Virus record (IMG/VR): IMGVR_UViG_3300049629_000462
Location: 1-27,609 of that record
From: a virus
Reading direction: 5' to 3' (one strand)
DNA length: 27,609 nt
A program made the translations under genes and the position numbers. Under the pieces are notes generated by a model that saw only the letters and a program-made list of their open reading frames with translations, was not told the origin of the DNA and did no database searches. This document shows, piece after piece, positions 2,936 through 12,494 of this stretch. Each line of letters opens with the position of its first letter. Within the stretch, counting starts at the first letter, position 1.

Positions 2936-3184
2936 TCACCATCGCGGGTTTGCCATGCTGCGCTGCCGTGTTTCGAGTTCCACGCGCCTCTTGCTGATTT
3001 CTGCAAGCAGAGCCTGGAGAACGGTTTCGGTCTTGCGAAGGTCTGCCAGCCGTGCGGCCAGTTCAAACTGCTCCGAGACCATCGTTTTCCCGTACTCCGC
3101 CATGCAATGCAAGGTAGCGATGGCGTTTGAAACAACGGTTGCAGCTTCGGGCTGCGCGACGATGACTGCGTGTGCCTTTCTCAT
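2936..3184 (-). CDS. First gene of the left minus-strand operon; helical hypothetical protein
   Basis: 82 residues. Mostly helical, with a likely coiled coil at about residues 36-74 (EQFELAARLADLRKTETVLQ). The start at 3184 is chosen because AGAGGAA lies about seven bases upstream; earlier in-frame codons run into the promoter region. It is the first gene after the predicted promoter at 3254-3281, so it and the genes down to 47 probably share one transcript. Function not recognised. Confidence 0.6.
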   Translation of the reverse strand: MRKAHAVIVAQPEAATVVSNAIATLHCMAEYGKTMVSEQFELAARLADLRKTETVLQALLAEISKRRVELETRQRSMANPRW

Positions 3185-4176: not shown

Positions 4177-4710
4177 TCACCATTGCGGTTGGTTCAGGTC
4201 TCTGTTCCGGTCTCTTCGATTCTTACCAACCCGCCCCCCCTTTGAAGGGGGGGCTATGGGGGGTTGGATATCTGTGGTTGTGGTTGTGGTTGTGGTTGCC
4301 ATCGTTTCGCCATTGGCGTTGCCATTAGCCCCGCCATTGGCCCCGCCATTGGCGTTGCCATTGGCCACCCCATTACGAGCGCGCCAGCGGGCATCCGCGC
4401 CCCGCCGACCGTTCTCGGAGGCGGTCGCGTGCTTCTCTTCAACGCGGGCGCGTTCGCGCTCCATGCGCGGATTGGATAGGGTGGCCATTGGCCCCGCCAT
4501 CCGCGTGAACCGCTGGCGGATGACCGCCCAATCGGCCTCTGACAGATTGCAACGGGTCAAGGTCGCGCACGCTTCCCGGTCATCGGGAACGCCGTGATTC
4601 GTCCAGGCGTACATCAGCAGTTGCGTGTACGCCCATCCCTGAACCGCCGTCATCGTGGCCGTGCTGACCAAGAAGTCGGTGGGGTACATCGGAAACCAAG
4701 GGGTAGCCAT
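4177..4710 (-). CDS. DUF1376-domain protein, putative phage replication initiator
   Basis: 177 residues. Residues 3-110 match the DUF1376 (YdaU-like) pattern: 'PWFPMYPTDFLVSTATMT', 'GWAYTQLLMYAWTNHGVPDD', 'NLSEADWAVIRQRF', and the closing 'TASENGRRGADARWR'. This family is common in phage replication modules and often precedes a helicase loader. A low-complexity tail follows: Asn-Gly-Ala-Asn repeats (about 113-134), eight Thr (139-146), Pro and a basic end. The start at 4710 has GGAG six bases upstream; the frame continues to 5001 but that part is not protein-like. The tail is encoded by tandem DNA repeats, so its length may vary between relatives. Confidence 0.8.
   Translation of the reverse strand: MATPWFPMYPTDFLVSTATMTAVQGWAYTQLLMYAWTNHGVPDDREACATLTRCNLSEADWAVIRQRFTRMAGPMATLSNPRMERERARVEEKHATASENGRRGADARWRARNGVANGNANGGANGGANGNANGETMATTTTTTTTDIQPPIAPPSKGGRVGKNRRDRNRDLNQPQW
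4273..4296. repeat. Hexanucleotide tandem repeat, 4 copies
   Basis: TGTGGT is repeated four times without a mismatch, encoding the poly-threonine run near the end of the DUF1376 protein. The unit is six bases, so copy-number change adds or removes two residues without breaking the frame. Confidence 0.85.
4309..4380. repeat. 12-base imperfect tandem repeat, 5-6 copies
   Basis: Units of the form GCCATTGGCGTT / GCCATTGGCCCC follow one another every 12 bases, the last one degenerate, and a further partial copy appears near 4485. On the minus strand they encode Gly/Ala-Asn-Gly linker residues. Unit length is a multiple of three, so slippage would alter linker length only. Confidence 0.85.
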
Positions 4711-4925
4711 TCCATGCTCCAAACTCCGCAGGCGAGGCGGGGAGCGGCTGCAAGCTAACCCGCCCCGCCCACGGATGTCGAAATGTCGAGCAGTTGCAGC
4801 CGCTCTCGCTACCCACGATGGGTTGCGTTGGATCGCAGTATACACTATCCTGCGCTCGTCGGGCGATGGTTTTTGCGATAGTCTGCGCGTGCAGCCTATG
4901 CCCGACAATTGAACCCCCGGAAGCG

Positions 4926-4953
4926 CGGCTCGGTTGACGCAAGTCCCGAGCCG
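4926..4953 (+). terminator. Stem-loop followed by a T-rich stretch
   Basis: CGGCTCGG and CCGAGCCG form a perfect 8-bp stem with a 12-base loop, followed on the plus strand by TGTTCTTTT. The shape is terminator-like for plus-strand transcripts, yet no plus-strand gene lies upstream in the window. It could block read-through into the 4177-4710 gene's antisense strand, or serve another role. Confidence 0.35.
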
Positions 4954-4958
4954 TGTTC

Positions 4959-4976
4959 TTTTCCGGCCCCGGAAAA
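4959..4976. repeat. Perfect 18-base palindrome
   Basis: TTTTCCGG and CCGGAAAA flank a 2-base centre. It lies six bases beyond the stem-loop at 4926-4953 and may be a protein-binding site or a second hairpin. No binding protein can be assigned. Confidence 0.5.
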
Positions 4977-5153
4977 CCGCGTGTACGCGGAATCGACACA
5001 TCCAAATAACGTGTACGAAAGTGCTACATATTTGAACATCTGTGGCGCATTCGATCCAGCGGACAGCAGCGCGTGCTTTCAGCTTCGCGCCCTGCCCTGG
5101 CGGTAGGTTTCATTACCCCATTGCTGTATACGCCGGCGGTCGTGCCTTACGGT

Positions 5154-5524: not shown

Positions 5525-6457
5525 CTATTGCGCGTCCATCACATCCCACGCCATGCGCGGATGACCGCGTGACTTGCCGCCGTCCTTGTCATCTTCGGTT
5601 TCCCACCGGATGAACAGGCGCACCCACTTGGCGCGCAGCGGCGTGGGGCCTGGACCCTTCTCCACGATCCATCCGCCCGAACCGTCCCCCCAATCCTGCT
5701 TGTACGTCCCGCACCGCACGAAGTCGCAATGACGATGCCGCACCTCGTACACGCCGTTTCGGGTCTCGAGGTACTCGCGGGCAATGCCGACGATGTTGGA
5801 ATGGTGGTTGTGTCCAACGGCGATGCAGTCCACGCCCTCAAGCCACGAGAGCATTCGCCGGCTGTCAAGTACGCCCATCGACATGGGCGCGCCGCCGCCG
5901 CTGCCGTGGTGATAGCGCATGGTCCAGGTGAGGTTCGTGTTGTTGATATTGACGCGAACCTTCATCCATCCGCCGTAGCCGCCTGCGCCCATCTGTGATT
6001 TCGGATTGATCGACTTGATGGCACGAACAAGGTTTGCCGTGGGGCAGGTCTCGTGGTGCTTGAGCCACGCGCTCTCATGATTGCCTTGCCCCAACACCGC
6101 CCACCACGGCGCGTAGGGTGCGTAGCGTTCCGCCGTCTCGTTGATGACAGCGTCGAAGTACGCGGCAGCAGCGTGTGAACTGCGGAGCATCGCCTTGGAT
6201 TGCCGCCTATCCGAAACGCCACACATCAAATCGAGGCAATCTCCAAGATCGCAAATGATGGCGTTGCGCTCCTTGGCTTGGCGAAGGTGCTTCTCCTCAA
6301 GATTCCTATCGCACTTGGTGTTGTCGGTGTGTGCGTCCGATCTCAAAAGTATGTATTGCTCCCACTCGCGGAACGAAGTCCCGGTGCAGTCCACGATGTG
6401 GATGTTCTTCCCGTGGTGCGTGACTTGGAACGGGAGCGCGGCTGGTCGTTTCGCCAT
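5525..6457 (-). CDS. Calcineurin-like metallophosphoesterase
   Basis: 310 residues with all the motifs of the metallophosphoesterase fold in order: SDAHTD (Asp41, His43), GDCLD (Gly72-Asp76), GNHE (125-128), a HH pair (183-184) and GHNH (215-218). These residues bind two metal ions and hydrolyse phosphomono- or diesters. Phage members include 2',3'-cyclic phosphatases, SbcD-like nucleases and nucleotide hydrolases; this one has no added nuclease-complex domain, so the substrate is open. A weak GAGG lies close to the ATG. It is the first gene after the divergent region at 6458-6618. Confidence 0.85.
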   Translation of the reverse strand: MAKRPAALPFQVTHHGKNIHIVDCTGTSFREWEQYILLRSDAHTDNTKCDRNLEEKHLRQAKERNAIICDLGDCLDLMCGVSDRRQSKAMLRSSHAAAAYFDAVINETAERYAPYAPWWAVLGQGNHESAWLKHHETCPTANLVRAIKSINPKSQMGAGGYGGWMKVRVNINNTNLTWTMRYHHGSGGGAPMSMGVLDSRRMLSWLEGVDCIAVGHNHHSNIVGIAREYLETRNGVYEVRHRHCDFVRCGTYKQDWGDGSGGWIVEKGPGPTPLRAKWVRLFIRWETEDDKDGGKSRGHPRMAWDVMDAQ

Positions 6458-8644: not shown

Positions 8645-8839
8645 ATGCCGCGCCAGGAGGAGGACGAGGACATCGTGGACCGTATCAAGGGCAGCGCGAC
8701 GACCGACCCCCTCACCATTGAGGCGATGCATGAGGTGATTCGCATCCGCCGGGAGATGGCGCGGATCATCCGCACGGGGAACCAAATACAGCAGGAGTTG
8801 GAACTTTGCAAGAGCCAGCAGGCCAAGCAGGCGCGTTGA
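8645..8839 (+). CDS. Small acidic helical protein
   Basis: 64 residues. An acidic start (PRQEEDEDIVDRI) is followed by a long helix (IEAMHEVIRIRREMARIIRT, then QIQQELELCKSQQAKQ). GAGGGG lies six bases before the ATG. The stop overlaps the RusA-like gene's start (TGATG), so the two are translationally coupled. A partner of the resolvase is possible but not demonstrated. Confidence 0.6.
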   Translation: MPRQEEDEDIVDRIKGSATTDPLTIEAMHEVIRIRREMARIIRTGNQIQQELELCKSQQAKQAR

Positions 8840-9237
8840 TGTTCAGCGTCCCCGGCGCAGCCGCGCCGCAGGGAAGTAAGACCGTTTTCCGCAGGGGTAG
8901 CCGCATCGTCCTCGTGGAGTCAAGCGCCAAGGTCAAGCCCTACCGCGCCGCCGTGGCGGCAGCGGCTTACGCCGCTGGCGCGGTTGTGGTGGACGGCCCG
9001 GTGAGCGTGCGCGTGGCGTTCTCGTTCGTCCGCCCCGCCAGCCATTTCGGGGCGCGTGGGCTGCGGACGGCCGCACGCACGTTTCCCGGCAAGCCCGACA
9101 CCGACAAGCTCGTGCGCGCCACGCTAGACGCGCTCACGGGCATTGCCTACCGCGACGATGCCCAAGTGGTGGAGATTTGGGCCACGAAGGCATACGGGCC
9201 GACCGCGCAGACGGTCATCGCCATTGCCTCGATTTGA
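8839..9237 (+). CDS. RusA-like Holliday junction resolvase
   Basis: 132 residues. The family signature is clear: 'VPGAAAPQGSKTVFR' at the start, then KPDTDKL (85-91), DAL (97-99) and RDDAQV (105-110). Asp87/Asp89, Asp97 and Asp106/107 correspond to the metal-binding acidic residues of RusA. RusA dimers cut four-way junctions symmetrically. Together with the annealing protein downstream it forms a phage recombination pair. The start at 8839 is chosen because it overlaps the previous stop (TGATG); the longer frame from 8806 is unlikely. The next promoter overlaps its stop codon. Confidence 0.85.
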   Translation: MFSVPGAAAPQGSKTVFRRGSRIVLVESSAKVKPYRAAVAAAAYAAGAVVVDGPVSVRVAFSFVRPASHFGARGLRTAARTFPGKPDTDKLVRATLDALTGIAYRDDAQVVEIWATKAYGPTAQTVIAIASI

Positions 9238-9261
9238 CTTTCGGCTACCGGGCCGTATACT
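9234..9261 (+). promoter_or_regulatory. Sigma70-like promoter of the RecT-like gene
   Basis: TTGACT (9234-9239), a 16-base spacer and TATACT (9256-9261) match the consensus closely. It overlaps the stop codon of the RusA-like gene and lies about 60 bases before the start at 9324, so the annealing protein can be made independently of the upstream operon. Confidence 0.75.
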
Positions 9262-9323: not shown

Positions 9324-10247
9324 ATGGAACTCGCAAGGATCGGGCAAGCGCAGCTTGACCCCATGTCGGTCGCCCAGGTGTTCAAGGCTTCGGGGATGTT
9401 CCCCGACATTCAGTCGGAGGCCGCAGCGTGCGCGAAGATCATCATCGGGCGCGGCCTGGGCCTGTCGGACTATGACGCGATGACGGGCCTGCACATCATC
9501 AAGGGCAAGGCCGTGCTGGCCGCCAACCTGATGGCCGCCGCCATCAAGCGCGCAGGGAAGTACGACTACCGCGCTGCCTGCACGGACACGGATTGCAGCA
9601 TCGTGTTCTTTGGCCGCAGCCCGGAGAACAAGTGGGAGGAGATCGGGACCACGACCTTCTCTATGGACGATGCGAAGCGGGCGCAGCTCGGCGGGGACAA
9701 TTGGCGCAAGTGGCCCAAGGCAATGCTCTTCGCCCGCTGCATTTCTAGCGGGTACAAGCAGCATTGCCCGGACGCGCTTGGCGCGGCCCCGGTGTACGTC
9801 GAAGCCCACGGCGAGACCGAGATCACGGAGGAAGCCCCCAAGGCCCGCGCCGCCCTTGCCGCCCCCGCAGCCCCTACGATTGACGCAGAGGCATCGGTGG
9901 TGGAGGATGCCCCGAAGCCCGTCCGCAAGCGCACGGCCAAGCAGGAGGCAAACCCGGCCCCGGAAACGCCCAAGGCGGCTGACGGCTATCCCGACGAGTA
10001 CGAGGGCGAGTTCAAGATCCTGCGCGTGGTGCGCCGCCCCGGCAAGCCCATTGCAATCAACGCCGTGGGCGAACACGGCGCGGCATGGATTGCCACCTCA
10101 ATTCTTGAGTATGGCCACCTGGCGGACGCGAACGTGGACAAGGAGATGCGCCTTGAGGTCGCCCGGATCGGGCAGACGCTACAGGTCATGCGCGTCATCG
10201 GGCCGATTGCGCCGGCCAAGGTTGACCCCGCGGACGTACCCTTCTGA
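9324..10247 (+). CDS. RecT-like single-strand annealing protein with an SSB-like C-terminal tip
   Basis: 307 residues. Residues 15-160 match a RecT-like annealing clade: 'AACAKIIIGRGLGLSDYDAMTGLHII', 'KAVLAANLMAAAIKRAGKYDY', 'TFSMDDAKRAQL', 'NWRKWPKAMLFARC'. Such proteins coat and anneal single-stranded DNA in phage replication and recombination. A Pro/Ala-rich linker (about 165-225) leads to a small alpha/beta domain (228-296). The last residues, DPADVPF, resemble the acidic DDDIPF tip of bacterial SSB. The start at 9324 has GAGGAG six bases upstream; an ATG at 9318 is too close to the site. The gene has its own promoter and a terminator downstream. Confidence 0.75.
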   Translation: MELARIGQAQLDPMSVAQVFKASGMFPDIQSEAAACAKIIIGRGLGLSDYDAMTGLHIIKGKAVLAANLMAAAIKRAGKYDYRAACTDTDCSIVFFGRSPENKWEEIGTTTFSMDDAKRAQLGGDNWRKWPKAMLFARCISSGYKQHCPDALGAAPVYVEAHGETEITEEAPKARAALAAPAAPTIDAEASVVEDAPKPVRKRTAKQEANPAPETPKAADGYPDEYEGEFKILRVVRRPGKPIAINAVGEHGAAWIATSILEYGHLADANVDKEMRLEVARIGQTLQVMRVIGPIAPAKVDPADVPF

Positions 10248-10254
10248 CCGTAGG

Positions 10255-10692
10255 CTAGTCGTTCTTCTCCCCCCCGCTTGCGGCCGCAGGAAGTTGGCCA
10301 GCAGGCGGGGGGTTTTCGTTTGGCACGCCGAACGGTACGAGGCGATTCAGGGCGGCTTGCCGCCGTCCACACGCCTGACACGGCTTGATCCCGATGGCCT
10401 TGGTCGCGGCGGCGACAACGTCACCCAGGCCACGGAAACCCTGCTTGGGCTGTTCCGGCGTTACCTGTTCGGGTGCGGGTTGATCTATGTCCGTAACGAT
10501 GAACAACGGCGGTCGGCGAAGATCACCGTTGCGAGTAACCCTGCGTTCGCATGATCCGCACCCAGCCAAGTCCAACCCAAGATCGCATTGCGGCGTGACC
10601 TCCTTGATGCGATATGAGGTGCAATCAATGATCGGTAGCGAAATGGTGTCGCCCATCAAATTGATGTGGCCCATGATGGGACGATTGCTCAT
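10255..10692 (-). CDS. Small CxxC protein at the end of the virion operon
   Basis: 145 residues. It contains 'CGSCERRV' in the middle and, near the end, 'ATKAIGIKPCQACGRRQAALNRLVPF'. The 'GIxPCxxCxxRxxxLNRxxP' block is frequent in small phage proteins encoded after tail genes, and the four cysteines could bind a metal. The start at 10692 forms an ATGA overlap with the stop of the cysteine-rich gene. Its 3' end carries the plus-strand terminator of the RecT-like gene, and the two operons converge with only seven bases between stops. Function unknown. Confidence 0.7.
   Translation of the reverse strand: MSNRPIMGHINLMGDTISLPIIDCTSYRIKEVTPQCDLGLDLAGCGSCERRVTRNGDLRRPPLFIVTDIDQPAPEQVTPEQPKQGFRGLGDVVAAATKAIGIKPCQACGRRQAALNRLVPFGVPNENPPPAGQLPAAASGGEKND
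10270..10316 (+). terminator. Intrinsic terminator of the plus-strand operon
   Basis: CCCCCCGC (10270-10277) pairs with GCGGGGGG (10305-10312) and is followed by TTTT. The 27-base loop holds an internal palindrome (TGCGGCCGCA) that can extend the structure. It ends transcripts coming from the RecT-like gene. It lies inside the coding sequence of the convergent minus-strand gene. Confidence 0.7.
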
Positions 10693-12494
10693 GTTATTGC
10701 GATTACCGATCCGTCTGTAGTGCAACGGTATGAGGTTGATTGGAACGAACGCAAGCACGGTTGCGGCAACGGATGGTCGATGTTCCATTGCTCACAATCC
10801 TCACCCGGAGGACAGCACAGGGCGGGCGTGTATTGGAACGGGTACGAGTAGCACCAGCTCTTGGGTTCAAATTGCCCAGGGCAAAGGTTTCGCCATCCGA
10901 CCTGGACAACGGTACTGCCCACCACAATGTTGTTGAGCGGCCAACCAACGCGAGATTGGCAACCAGCCACGGTTTCGTAGAAGTTGATGTCCGTGCAGAT
11001 GCTTGTGTTGGAGGACGGCTCCTCAACGCGCCGCATGGTGTATCGGAAGTTGTTGGAGTATTCCGGGAACGACAGGCACTTCAGCACATACGGGTATTCC
11101 GTACCCACGGCAGATATCGCGCAATTGATGACATCGCCCACCGTGGAATAGTCGGAGCGGAGCCGCTGGGAAGCGCAGACGTACCAGCGCGGACTAGATG
11201 CTCGGAGCCAAACACGGATCTGCGCGCCGCCGTTGATGAAGGCCACGCGGTCAACGTAGATGGTGTCGCCAAACGATGCCGGCGGTCTTTCGTTTGGTGA
11301 TGCCTCCGGACAGGCAAAGCATGACTGCCGGAATCCAAACCAAAAGAACGCGGACCACGGGCCGATACCCGAGGCCTGCACGAGTGCGCCGATTCTGCTG
11401 TTGACCTTGGCAGCAATGTGCGCGGCGTTACCCGAAAACATGATGGTGGTGAGGTCGCACACTCGCACATACGGAACGGTAAACACGCCCCACCCCGTAT
11501 TGACCGGGCCAGTAGTCACTTCAACAACCGGATACTCGCCCGTGATGAACGTTTCATTGAGCTGCGCCTGGGCTGTCGGAGATCCGTAGATGATGTCCGG
11601 CGCGAAGCAGGCATCAAACGTCAGTTGCAGAACATCCTCAACGTGATCTTGGCCTTCGCACAGGTTGACCGAATAGCAAGTCGTGTAGTTGTAGGTCTCA
11701 AACCTGTCCTCAAACGAGCTGCAGAAGTCGGGATCGACATCGCAGTTTGGCGTTGAACCGCAGCAGTCGCCTTCCGGGTCGCAATCAGGGCAGTCCATGT
11801 ATTTGAGGAAATACTGCGTCACCGAATAGTTGGTCGGGCATGGGGCCGGAAAATCGTTGACGGTGCAAAGACTCAAGTTCTGCACCATGCCGATGGTCAG
11901 GTTGTCATGCTCAACGGGCGGCCCGTGGTCGCACCGCACGGGCCATGTCACGCCGATGGTTTCGATGCATTGAGTAGCCGACGAAGAAACGGTGACAGGC
12001 ACGGCCGTTCCAACCTGATCAGCAAGGGTGTAGCATTGCGCCACCAGCTCCTCGCATGGATCGCTTGGGATTTCGATATTGGCCCCAGGCAATTTGATGA
12101 TTTGGCCGGGATCTGTTTTGACTTGCGGCTCGGGGTAGCAACATGGGTCACCCGTGGTTGCCTTGTTGCTAATCTTCAACAGCCGACCGACATCAATTGG
12201 ATTGGTTGGTATGACCGGGGGACACACGGCGACCGTTTCATACCCAGTCAGGATGTAGACGCAACAGTCGTAGGCGATGTAATAGCAGAGGTTCGTGATG
12301 TCCGGCGGCAGGGAAATGCCGATGGAGGTCAGGTAACTCTCGCAAAAGTCAATTCGATTTGGGGCCGCGCCGCAGTCCGATTGGCAGCAATAGTCCTCAA
12401 AGAAATCAGGACACTTAATTGCATACCACAACCGCGGCAATGGAGGCGGCGGCGGTTGTTCGCAACAACAGGAAGCGTTCAGGCTCCCGCTCAT
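10689..12494 (-). CDS. Very cysteine-rich large protein of the tail/lysis end
   Basis: 601 residues with 44 cysteines by my count (about 7%), many in CC, CCC or CxxC pairs (ASCCCEQ, YCCQSDC, CPDCDPEGDCC, ALCCPPGEDC). A Pro run (PPPPPLP) follows the first cluster. No repeat unit, enzyme motif or signal peptide is obvious; the rest is aromatic- and Thr-rich as in virion surface proteins. The start at 12494 overlaps a tiny upstream frame (ATGA) and has no strong ribosome-binding site; the longer frame to 12620 reads through two small membrane genes and is not protein-like. Position after the fibre and membrane cluster suggests a virion surface or host-interaction protein (inference). Confidence 0.75.
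   Translation of the reverse strand: MSGSLNASCCCEQPPPPPLPRLWYAIKCPDFFEDYCCQSDCGAAPNRIDFCESYLTSIGISLPPDITNLCYYIAYDCCVYILTGYETVAVCPPVIPTNPIDVGRLLKISNKATTGDPCCYPEPQVKTDPGQIIKLPGANIEIPSDPCEELVAQCYTLADQVGTAVPVTVSSSATQCIETIGVTWPVRCDHGPPVEHDNLTIGMVQNLSLCTVNDFPAPCPTNYSVTQYFLKYMDCPDCDPEGDCCGSTPNCDVDPDFCSSFEDRFETYNYTTCYSVNLCEGQDHVEDVLQLTFDACFAPDIIYGSPTAQAQLNETFITGEYPVVEVTTGPVNTGWGVFTVPYVRVCDLTTIMFSGNAAHIAAKVNSRIGALVQASGIGPWSAFFWFGFRQSCFACPEASPNERPPASFGDTIYVDRVAFINGGAQIRVWLRASSPRWYVCASQRLRSDYSTVGDVINCAISAVGTEYPYVLKCLSFPEYSNNFRYTMRRVEEPSSNTSICTDINFYETVAGCQSRVGWPLNNIVVGSTVVQVGWRNLCPGQFEPKSWCYSYPFQYTPALCCPPGEDCEQWNIDHPLPQPCLRSFQSTSYRCTTDGSVIAIT

Follow-up and report, generated by a model that had tools for sequence, protein, structure and literature searches.

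A single-strand annealing protein (SSAP) encoded in a 27,609-nucleotide stretch of viral DNA (IMG/VR virus record IMGVR_UViG_3300049629_000462, positions 1 to 27,609; hereafter the window) carries behind its annealing core a linker, a predicted OB-fold domain and an SSB-like terminal tip. Comparisons of related sequences indicate that the locus retains the linker, OB domain and tip while unrelated annealing cores are swapped in front of them. The best explanation, which we regard as probable, is that the window protein is a phage SSAP with a fused SSB-like accessory module (the OB domain and tip) that docks SSB-binding proteins at the site of annealing.

The window annealer and its predicted C-terminal domain

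The features of the annealer gene and its upstream neighbours are collected in Table 1. The open reading frame runs from an ATG at 9324 to a stop codon at 10245-10247, its translation ends ...KVDPADVPF, and the C-terminal letters of the 307-aa annealer are GPIAPAKVDPADVPF. The promoter pattern upstream was found once against 0.3 expected in shuffles. On the 3' side (10248-10320), an inverted repeat made of a C-run and a G-run precedes TTTTCGTTT, and a convergent ORF, 10255-10788 (-), ends within this region. The repeat could be a terminator; a pattern scan did not call one there.

Table 1. Features of the window annealer and its upstream neighbours (positions in the window)
Feature	Position	Strand	Basis or remark
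64-aa protein, function not assigned	8645..8839	+	conserved in the same cassette; no Pfam or PHROG match
RusA-like Holliday junction resolvase, directly upstream of the annealer	8839..9237	+	PF05866 E=7.5e-17
Sigma-70-like promoter match TTGACT-16-TATACT, upstream of the annealer gene	9234..9261	+	consensus match only
RecT-like single-strand annealing protein gene	9324..10247	+	ORF, 307 aa + stop; PHROG 561/4171
Annealing core, residues 1-152	9324..9779	+	segment swapped for PF03837 RecT cores in relatives
Linker, disordered, Ala/Pro-rich, residues 153-217	9780..9974	+	pLDDT below 50; core exchanges break here
OB-fold domain (predicted), C-terminal, residues about 222-293	9987..10202	+	b-b-b-a-b-b; AlphaFold2 + Foldseek
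Short linker from OB domain to tip	10203..10223	+	length and sequence vary among relatives
SSB-like tip DPADVPF	10224..10244	+	67/75 distinct module sequences end PF; codon analysis

The core matched PHROGs of RecT-like ssDNA annealing proteins (phrog_561, E=9e-11; phrog_4171, E=1e-7), and these PHROG matches bear out the earlier description of the protein as RecT-like. Searches of the window protein against Pfam and NCBIfam gave nothing credible for the core, PF03837 being unmatched. Because a PF03837 core takes its place in near-identical loci, the window core probably works like a RecT. Among annotated phages, only Synechococcus phage S-LBS1 had a similar core (38% over residues 12-159), and the annotation there reads DNA single-strand annealing protein.

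The sequence-only reading had described an extra small domain at the C-terminus and had proposed a structure prediction of this region for an OB fold. When the C-terminal 93 residues were modelled in AlphaFold2 from 18 sequences, such a fold was returned at a pLDDT of 88, with the OB order strand-strand-strand-helix-strand-strand. The extra domain is thus present, but the start given for it, 10050, cuts into the OB domain, which begins at about 9987. In the full-length model the OB domain had a pLDDT of about 87-92, the core was moderate and residues 153-217 were disordered. Among PDB entries the best Foldseek match was the OB domain of Deinococcus RecO (1u5k, TMq 0.62, rmsd 2.0, E=0.012, probability 1.00), RecO being an annealing protein itself; the next matches, mostly OB domains, were RPA, CST, Stn1/Ten1, Cdc13 and a small Mycoplasma ssDNA-binding protein, and among viral models baculovirus LEF-3 proteins were matched. 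The model therefore combines a five-stranded barrel, a helix between strands 3 and 4 and matches to known OB domains, as in the OB-fold superfamily, and the C-terminal domain of the window annealer is predicted to be an OB fold.

The matches listed for the full-length model in Foldseek were only OB-containing or unrelated proteins and were to the C-terminal part, with no structural match for the core, and no credible match came from a PDB sequence search using profiles of the OB domain and the core. A PDB match to L-threonine aldolase (E=0.02) was dismissed as chance. Residues 213-307 had no match to the SSB profile PF00436. The OB domain is without a sequence match to any SSB family, and its net charge of -1 to -4 is not typical of a strong ssDNA binder.

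Core exchange in front of the module

A scan of viral contigs with the whole protein found 63 relatives, and further scans with the OB domain found more; no relatives were found in bacterial genome contigs in two scans, and there was no match to the module among 50,697 annotated phage records. Counts were taken over 75 distinct module DNA sequences, which are related to one another and do not represent independent events, and the module contigs are all metagenomic and may be incomplete. By core class these carriers comprise 27 RecT-like, 21 RecT (PF03837, E=4e-31 for L096, and PHROG 2780) and 25 ERF (PF04404, E=1e-21 for L111) sequences, with two unclassified. The three core profiles did not match one another in hhalign, a comparison whose sensitivity is limited by the shallowness of the profiles.

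RecT-like and RecT cores interleave in a tree of the OB domain. Across all three groups, parsimony on this tree, which was built on only 70 columns, gave 12 core changes, at least five of them forced by well-supported branches, and an identical OB protein sequence is found on both of these kinds of core (L096 and L098). Individual exchanges can be seen in close pairs of contigs. L100 (RecT-like) and L101 (RecT) are 95.9% identical over 2.26 kb up to the start codon, cannot be aligned over the core (2322-2842) and align again, at 87.5% identity, from a point within the linker across the OB domain, which starts at 3007, and the tip; L090 and L088 have the same pattern, with the core break lying between flanks of 95.6% and 95.8% identity. 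The tip, which the sequence-only reading had described on one RecT-like protein, is therefore better described as one part of an OB and tip module that is common to three annealer families and survives core exchange.

In the reverse direction, a stretch of about 480 bp covering just the RecT-like core is shared, at roughly 73-85% DNA identity, with phages that have other C-termini and, in the loci compared, no further similarity above 150 bp. The other C-termini on RecT-like cores include an unrelated tip-less domain (A3) and a domain ending EELEF or EEEVEF. The latter domain, seen in L036, L038 and L053, appears to be helical, and its end is possibly an independent second acidic-Phe tip. For the A3 domain (alignment L032-L059) the strand pattern suggests an OB fold; its profile did not match the module profile.

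The module phages largely represent one locus layout. Most RecT and ERF module loci, and about half of the RecT-like loci, also contain a Siphovirus Gp157 gene (PF05565). Elsewhere in the window, a 310-aa protein with GDCLDL/GNHES motifs (5525-6457, -) matched the PHROG 'DNA repair exonuclease' (E=1e-10) and may be a metallophosphoesterase nuclease; a protein of similar size and place is encoded in ERF-type contigs (L111:4106-5023, -).

Conservation of the tip and its possible partners

Likening the end of the window protein to the acidic-hydrophobic-Pro-Phe tip of SSBs raised the question, also posed in the sequence-only reading, of whether the terminal motif is conserved in homologues. It is: PF forms the end of 67 of the 75 distinct module sequences, almost always within [D/E]-[V/L/I/M]-P-F, and three others end EEVF or EEIF, the Pro being missing, which brings terminal Phe to 70/75. 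The remaining five are without the tip, ending EEATHV (L023 and L024) or RQEVVR or RQEVAR (L146 and L153), or being frameshifted (L095). The last of these is a RecT-core module gene with frameshifts in both core and tail, which may reflect sequencing error or decay. Among the PF-ending sequences, position -3 is always V, L, I or M, position -4 is D or E in 60 of the 67, and residues from position -5 outward drift (pN/pS about 0.6-1.7, vs 0.42 in the OB domain). About 959 other non-overlapping ORF C-termini from the same contigs, some of them spurious, served as a control: there was one PF end (three were listed, two being module proteins that the filter passed over) and none of the form [DE][VLIM]PF. 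These sequence counts place the conservation of the tip beyond chance.

The 67 sequences use all four CCN codons for the Pro and both TTY codons for the Phe, in eight combinations, and this use of all synonymous codons indicates that constraint acts on the protein. The complete lack of nonsynonymous change at the two positions is by construction, because the set was chosen for its PF ending, and the fair figure is 67/75, or 70/75 for the terminal Phe. These data bear on whether the tip is a functionless relic of the lineage, kept by recent common descent, as might be suspected from the single locus layout of most module phages and the loss of the tip in a few members. We regard this explanation as highly improbable, given that P and F are retained, with no more than synonymous change, while OB domains diverge to about 46-60% identity and relatives differ in both the length and the sequence of the linker before the tip.

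Acidity is a less constant property of the tip. Those linked to ERF cores are barely acidic (e.g. KVEVPF, KQEVPF), and over the last nine residues the net negative charge is 0 or less in 19 of the 67 PF-ending sequences. Acidic tails are known to regulate ssDNA binding in T4 gp32 and T7 gp2.5. Such regulation in SSB-type proteins (discussed in PMC5928155) would be consistent with a tip that is an autoinhibitory DNA mimic, folding back on the OB domain or core until released by ssDNA, a mechanism that has been proposed for SSB and for the T4 and T7 ssDNA-binding proteins. This is decidedly unlikely, because electrostatic mimicry predicts the reverse of a pattern in which the hydrophobic-Pro-Phe end is conserved rather than net charge, and this same pattern favours docking of the tip into a protein pocket. 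The idea of a strictly acidic DNA mimic is likewise weakened by the near-neutral tips of the ERF group.

Docking could alternatively involve a partner encoded by the phage, the RusA-like resolvase or the ~60-aa protein being the likeliest, and would then couple annealing to branch resolution. Both are candidate partners because in almost every locus of each of the three classes they are encoded close to the module gene (RusA-like gene, 24/27 RecT-like, 21/21 RecT and 24/25 ERF loci; ~60-aa gene, 24/27, 21/21 and 21/25, respectively), and the RusA of module loci was not found beside RecT-like genes with other C-termini, save for one partial edge match in L031. A phage-encoded partner nonetheless seems unlikely to us, as the tip-less L023, L024, L146 and L153 still have RusA and host pockets are known for the SSB consensus to which the tip corresponds. 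Host pockets could also be the target if the tip were a decoy, filling the SSB-tail pockets of nucleases and helicases and so shielding phage DNA ends. The presence of a Mu Gam-like end-protection PHROG match in a relative, the L018 contig, raises the prospect that end protection belongs to the lifestyle of these phages, but a decoy needs neither fusion to an annealer nor retention through core exchanges, and we consider this role very doubtful.

The preferred explanation, a fused accessory module that docks SSB-binding proteins, implies a division of labour within the protein. The core would pair complementary strands, the OB domain would sit on adjacent ssDNA or hold the complex together, and the tip, on its flexible linker, would dock into the SSB-tail pocket of SSB-interacting proteins, with RecO, PriA, RecQ, ExoI and the like as host candidates. 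Docked proteins would thereby be brought to the annealed intermediate, and the phage would need no separate SSB gene. During evolution, the module stays in the locus as unrelated annealing cores replace one another. Within this scheme, it is ssDNA binding by the OB domain, docking by the tip and the identity of the partners that we infer.

An SSB-like tip also occurs on a different replication protein, as a primosomal protein (phrog_9327/3992) of the L018 contig (L067:79-555) ends GNDSLPF. Its counterpart in the window by PHROG match (4177-5001, -) ends LNQPQW.

Relation to SSBs and known annealing proteins

The six nearest annotated phages of the three cores are without the module, and all six encode a PF00436 SSB. 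The ssb gene adjoins the annealer gene or lies within two genes of it in S-LBS1, S-H1, LP.2, Pq0 and Silence, and four of these separate SSBs end DDEEVPF, DEDVPF, DSIPF and DDDLPF, the same family of tips as in the module. No PF00436 gene was found in the 38 module contigs searched (0/15 and 0/23), a pattern of gene content compatible with fused replacement of the ssb gene. We rejected this complementarity as proof of replacement, because a PF00436 gene was equally missing from 18 contigs whose RecT-like core bears other C-termini, and the absence is therefore not module-specific. More tentatively, the protein could be a natural SSAP-SSB fusion, in which one polypeptide anneals, coats ssDNA and presents its own SSB tip, recombining without recognising host SSB. 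If true, the annealer would escape the host-SSB specificity by which RecT/Redbeta are limited, and the exchange of unrelated cores onto the same module would be accounted for.

The module resembles bacterial and phage SSBs (PF00436) in its OB fold, flexible linker and terminal D/E-hydrophobic-P-F tip, but has no sequence similarity to them, and its OB domain is of about 70 residues, with a short linker, and is fused to an annealing core. Gp2.5-type SSAPs (T7 gp2.5, PF10991) likewise combine DNA annealing with an OB fold and a C-terminal tail. In Gp2.5 the OB fold is itself the annealer, whereas in the window protein it is appended behind a separate annealing core. As in RecT/Redbeta (PF03837), an annealing core is joined to a small C-terminal domain by a flexible linker, and some module carriers have a genuine PF03837 core, although the window's own core is not recognised by that profile. 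Binding to the host SSB tail is the norm for RecT/Redbeta proteins, and in Redbeta the C-terminal domain (CTD) provides it (PMC8303780, PMC10711431); this helical domain makes a contact with host SSB that is needed in vivo and also binds lambda exonuclease (PMC8303780). The Redbeta CTD is a three-helix bundle, in contrast to the predicted b-b-b-a-b-b OB domain of the window protein, which bears an SSB-like tail of its own.

An SSAP gene commonly has ssb as its neighbour, the figure being almost 80% for erf of Firmicutes phages (PMC8093625). The 25 module sequences with an ERF core (PF04404) differ from this arrangement in having the OB domain and tip fused to the annealer, with no PF00436 gene found in the module contigs searched. 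A tail can also act across two proteins, as the NDYPPF tail of the HK620 phage SSB is required to bring Sak4 onto SSB-covered ssDNA (PMC5928155); there too a phage SSB tail brings an annealer onto ssDNA, but here a single polypeptide is involved. Fusion of an SSB tail to the OB protein PriB gave higher ssDNA affinity and PriA stimulation (PMC8509808). A precedent for a mobile C-terminal part is the HTH domain shuffled among the SSAP families Sak4, RecT and Erf in Firmicutes (PMC8093625). That domain is related to the Redbeta CTD, whereas the module is an OB domain with an SSB tip whose core exchanges are shown directly by close contig pairs. In the open-access literature no description was found of an SSAP fused to an SSB-like tail, or of an OB and SSB-tip module common to SSAP families; within that literature, shuffling of C-terminal HTH domains among SSAPs is known and an OB and SSB-tip module common to SSAP families is new here.

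These findings point to the module being a selected, reusable SSB-like part. Family labels for SSAPs that are based on the core miss this shared C-terminal function, and the occurrence of the same module on three cores provides a ready-made domain-swap series for studying the role of the SSB tail in annealing. The host range of RecT follows SSB tail recognition (PMC10711431), and recombineering is limited because RecT/Redbeta perform best where the SSB tail of the host is one that they recognise. An annealer with its own OB domain and SSB-like tip, kept through repeated core exchange, suggests a different solution to this host limit.
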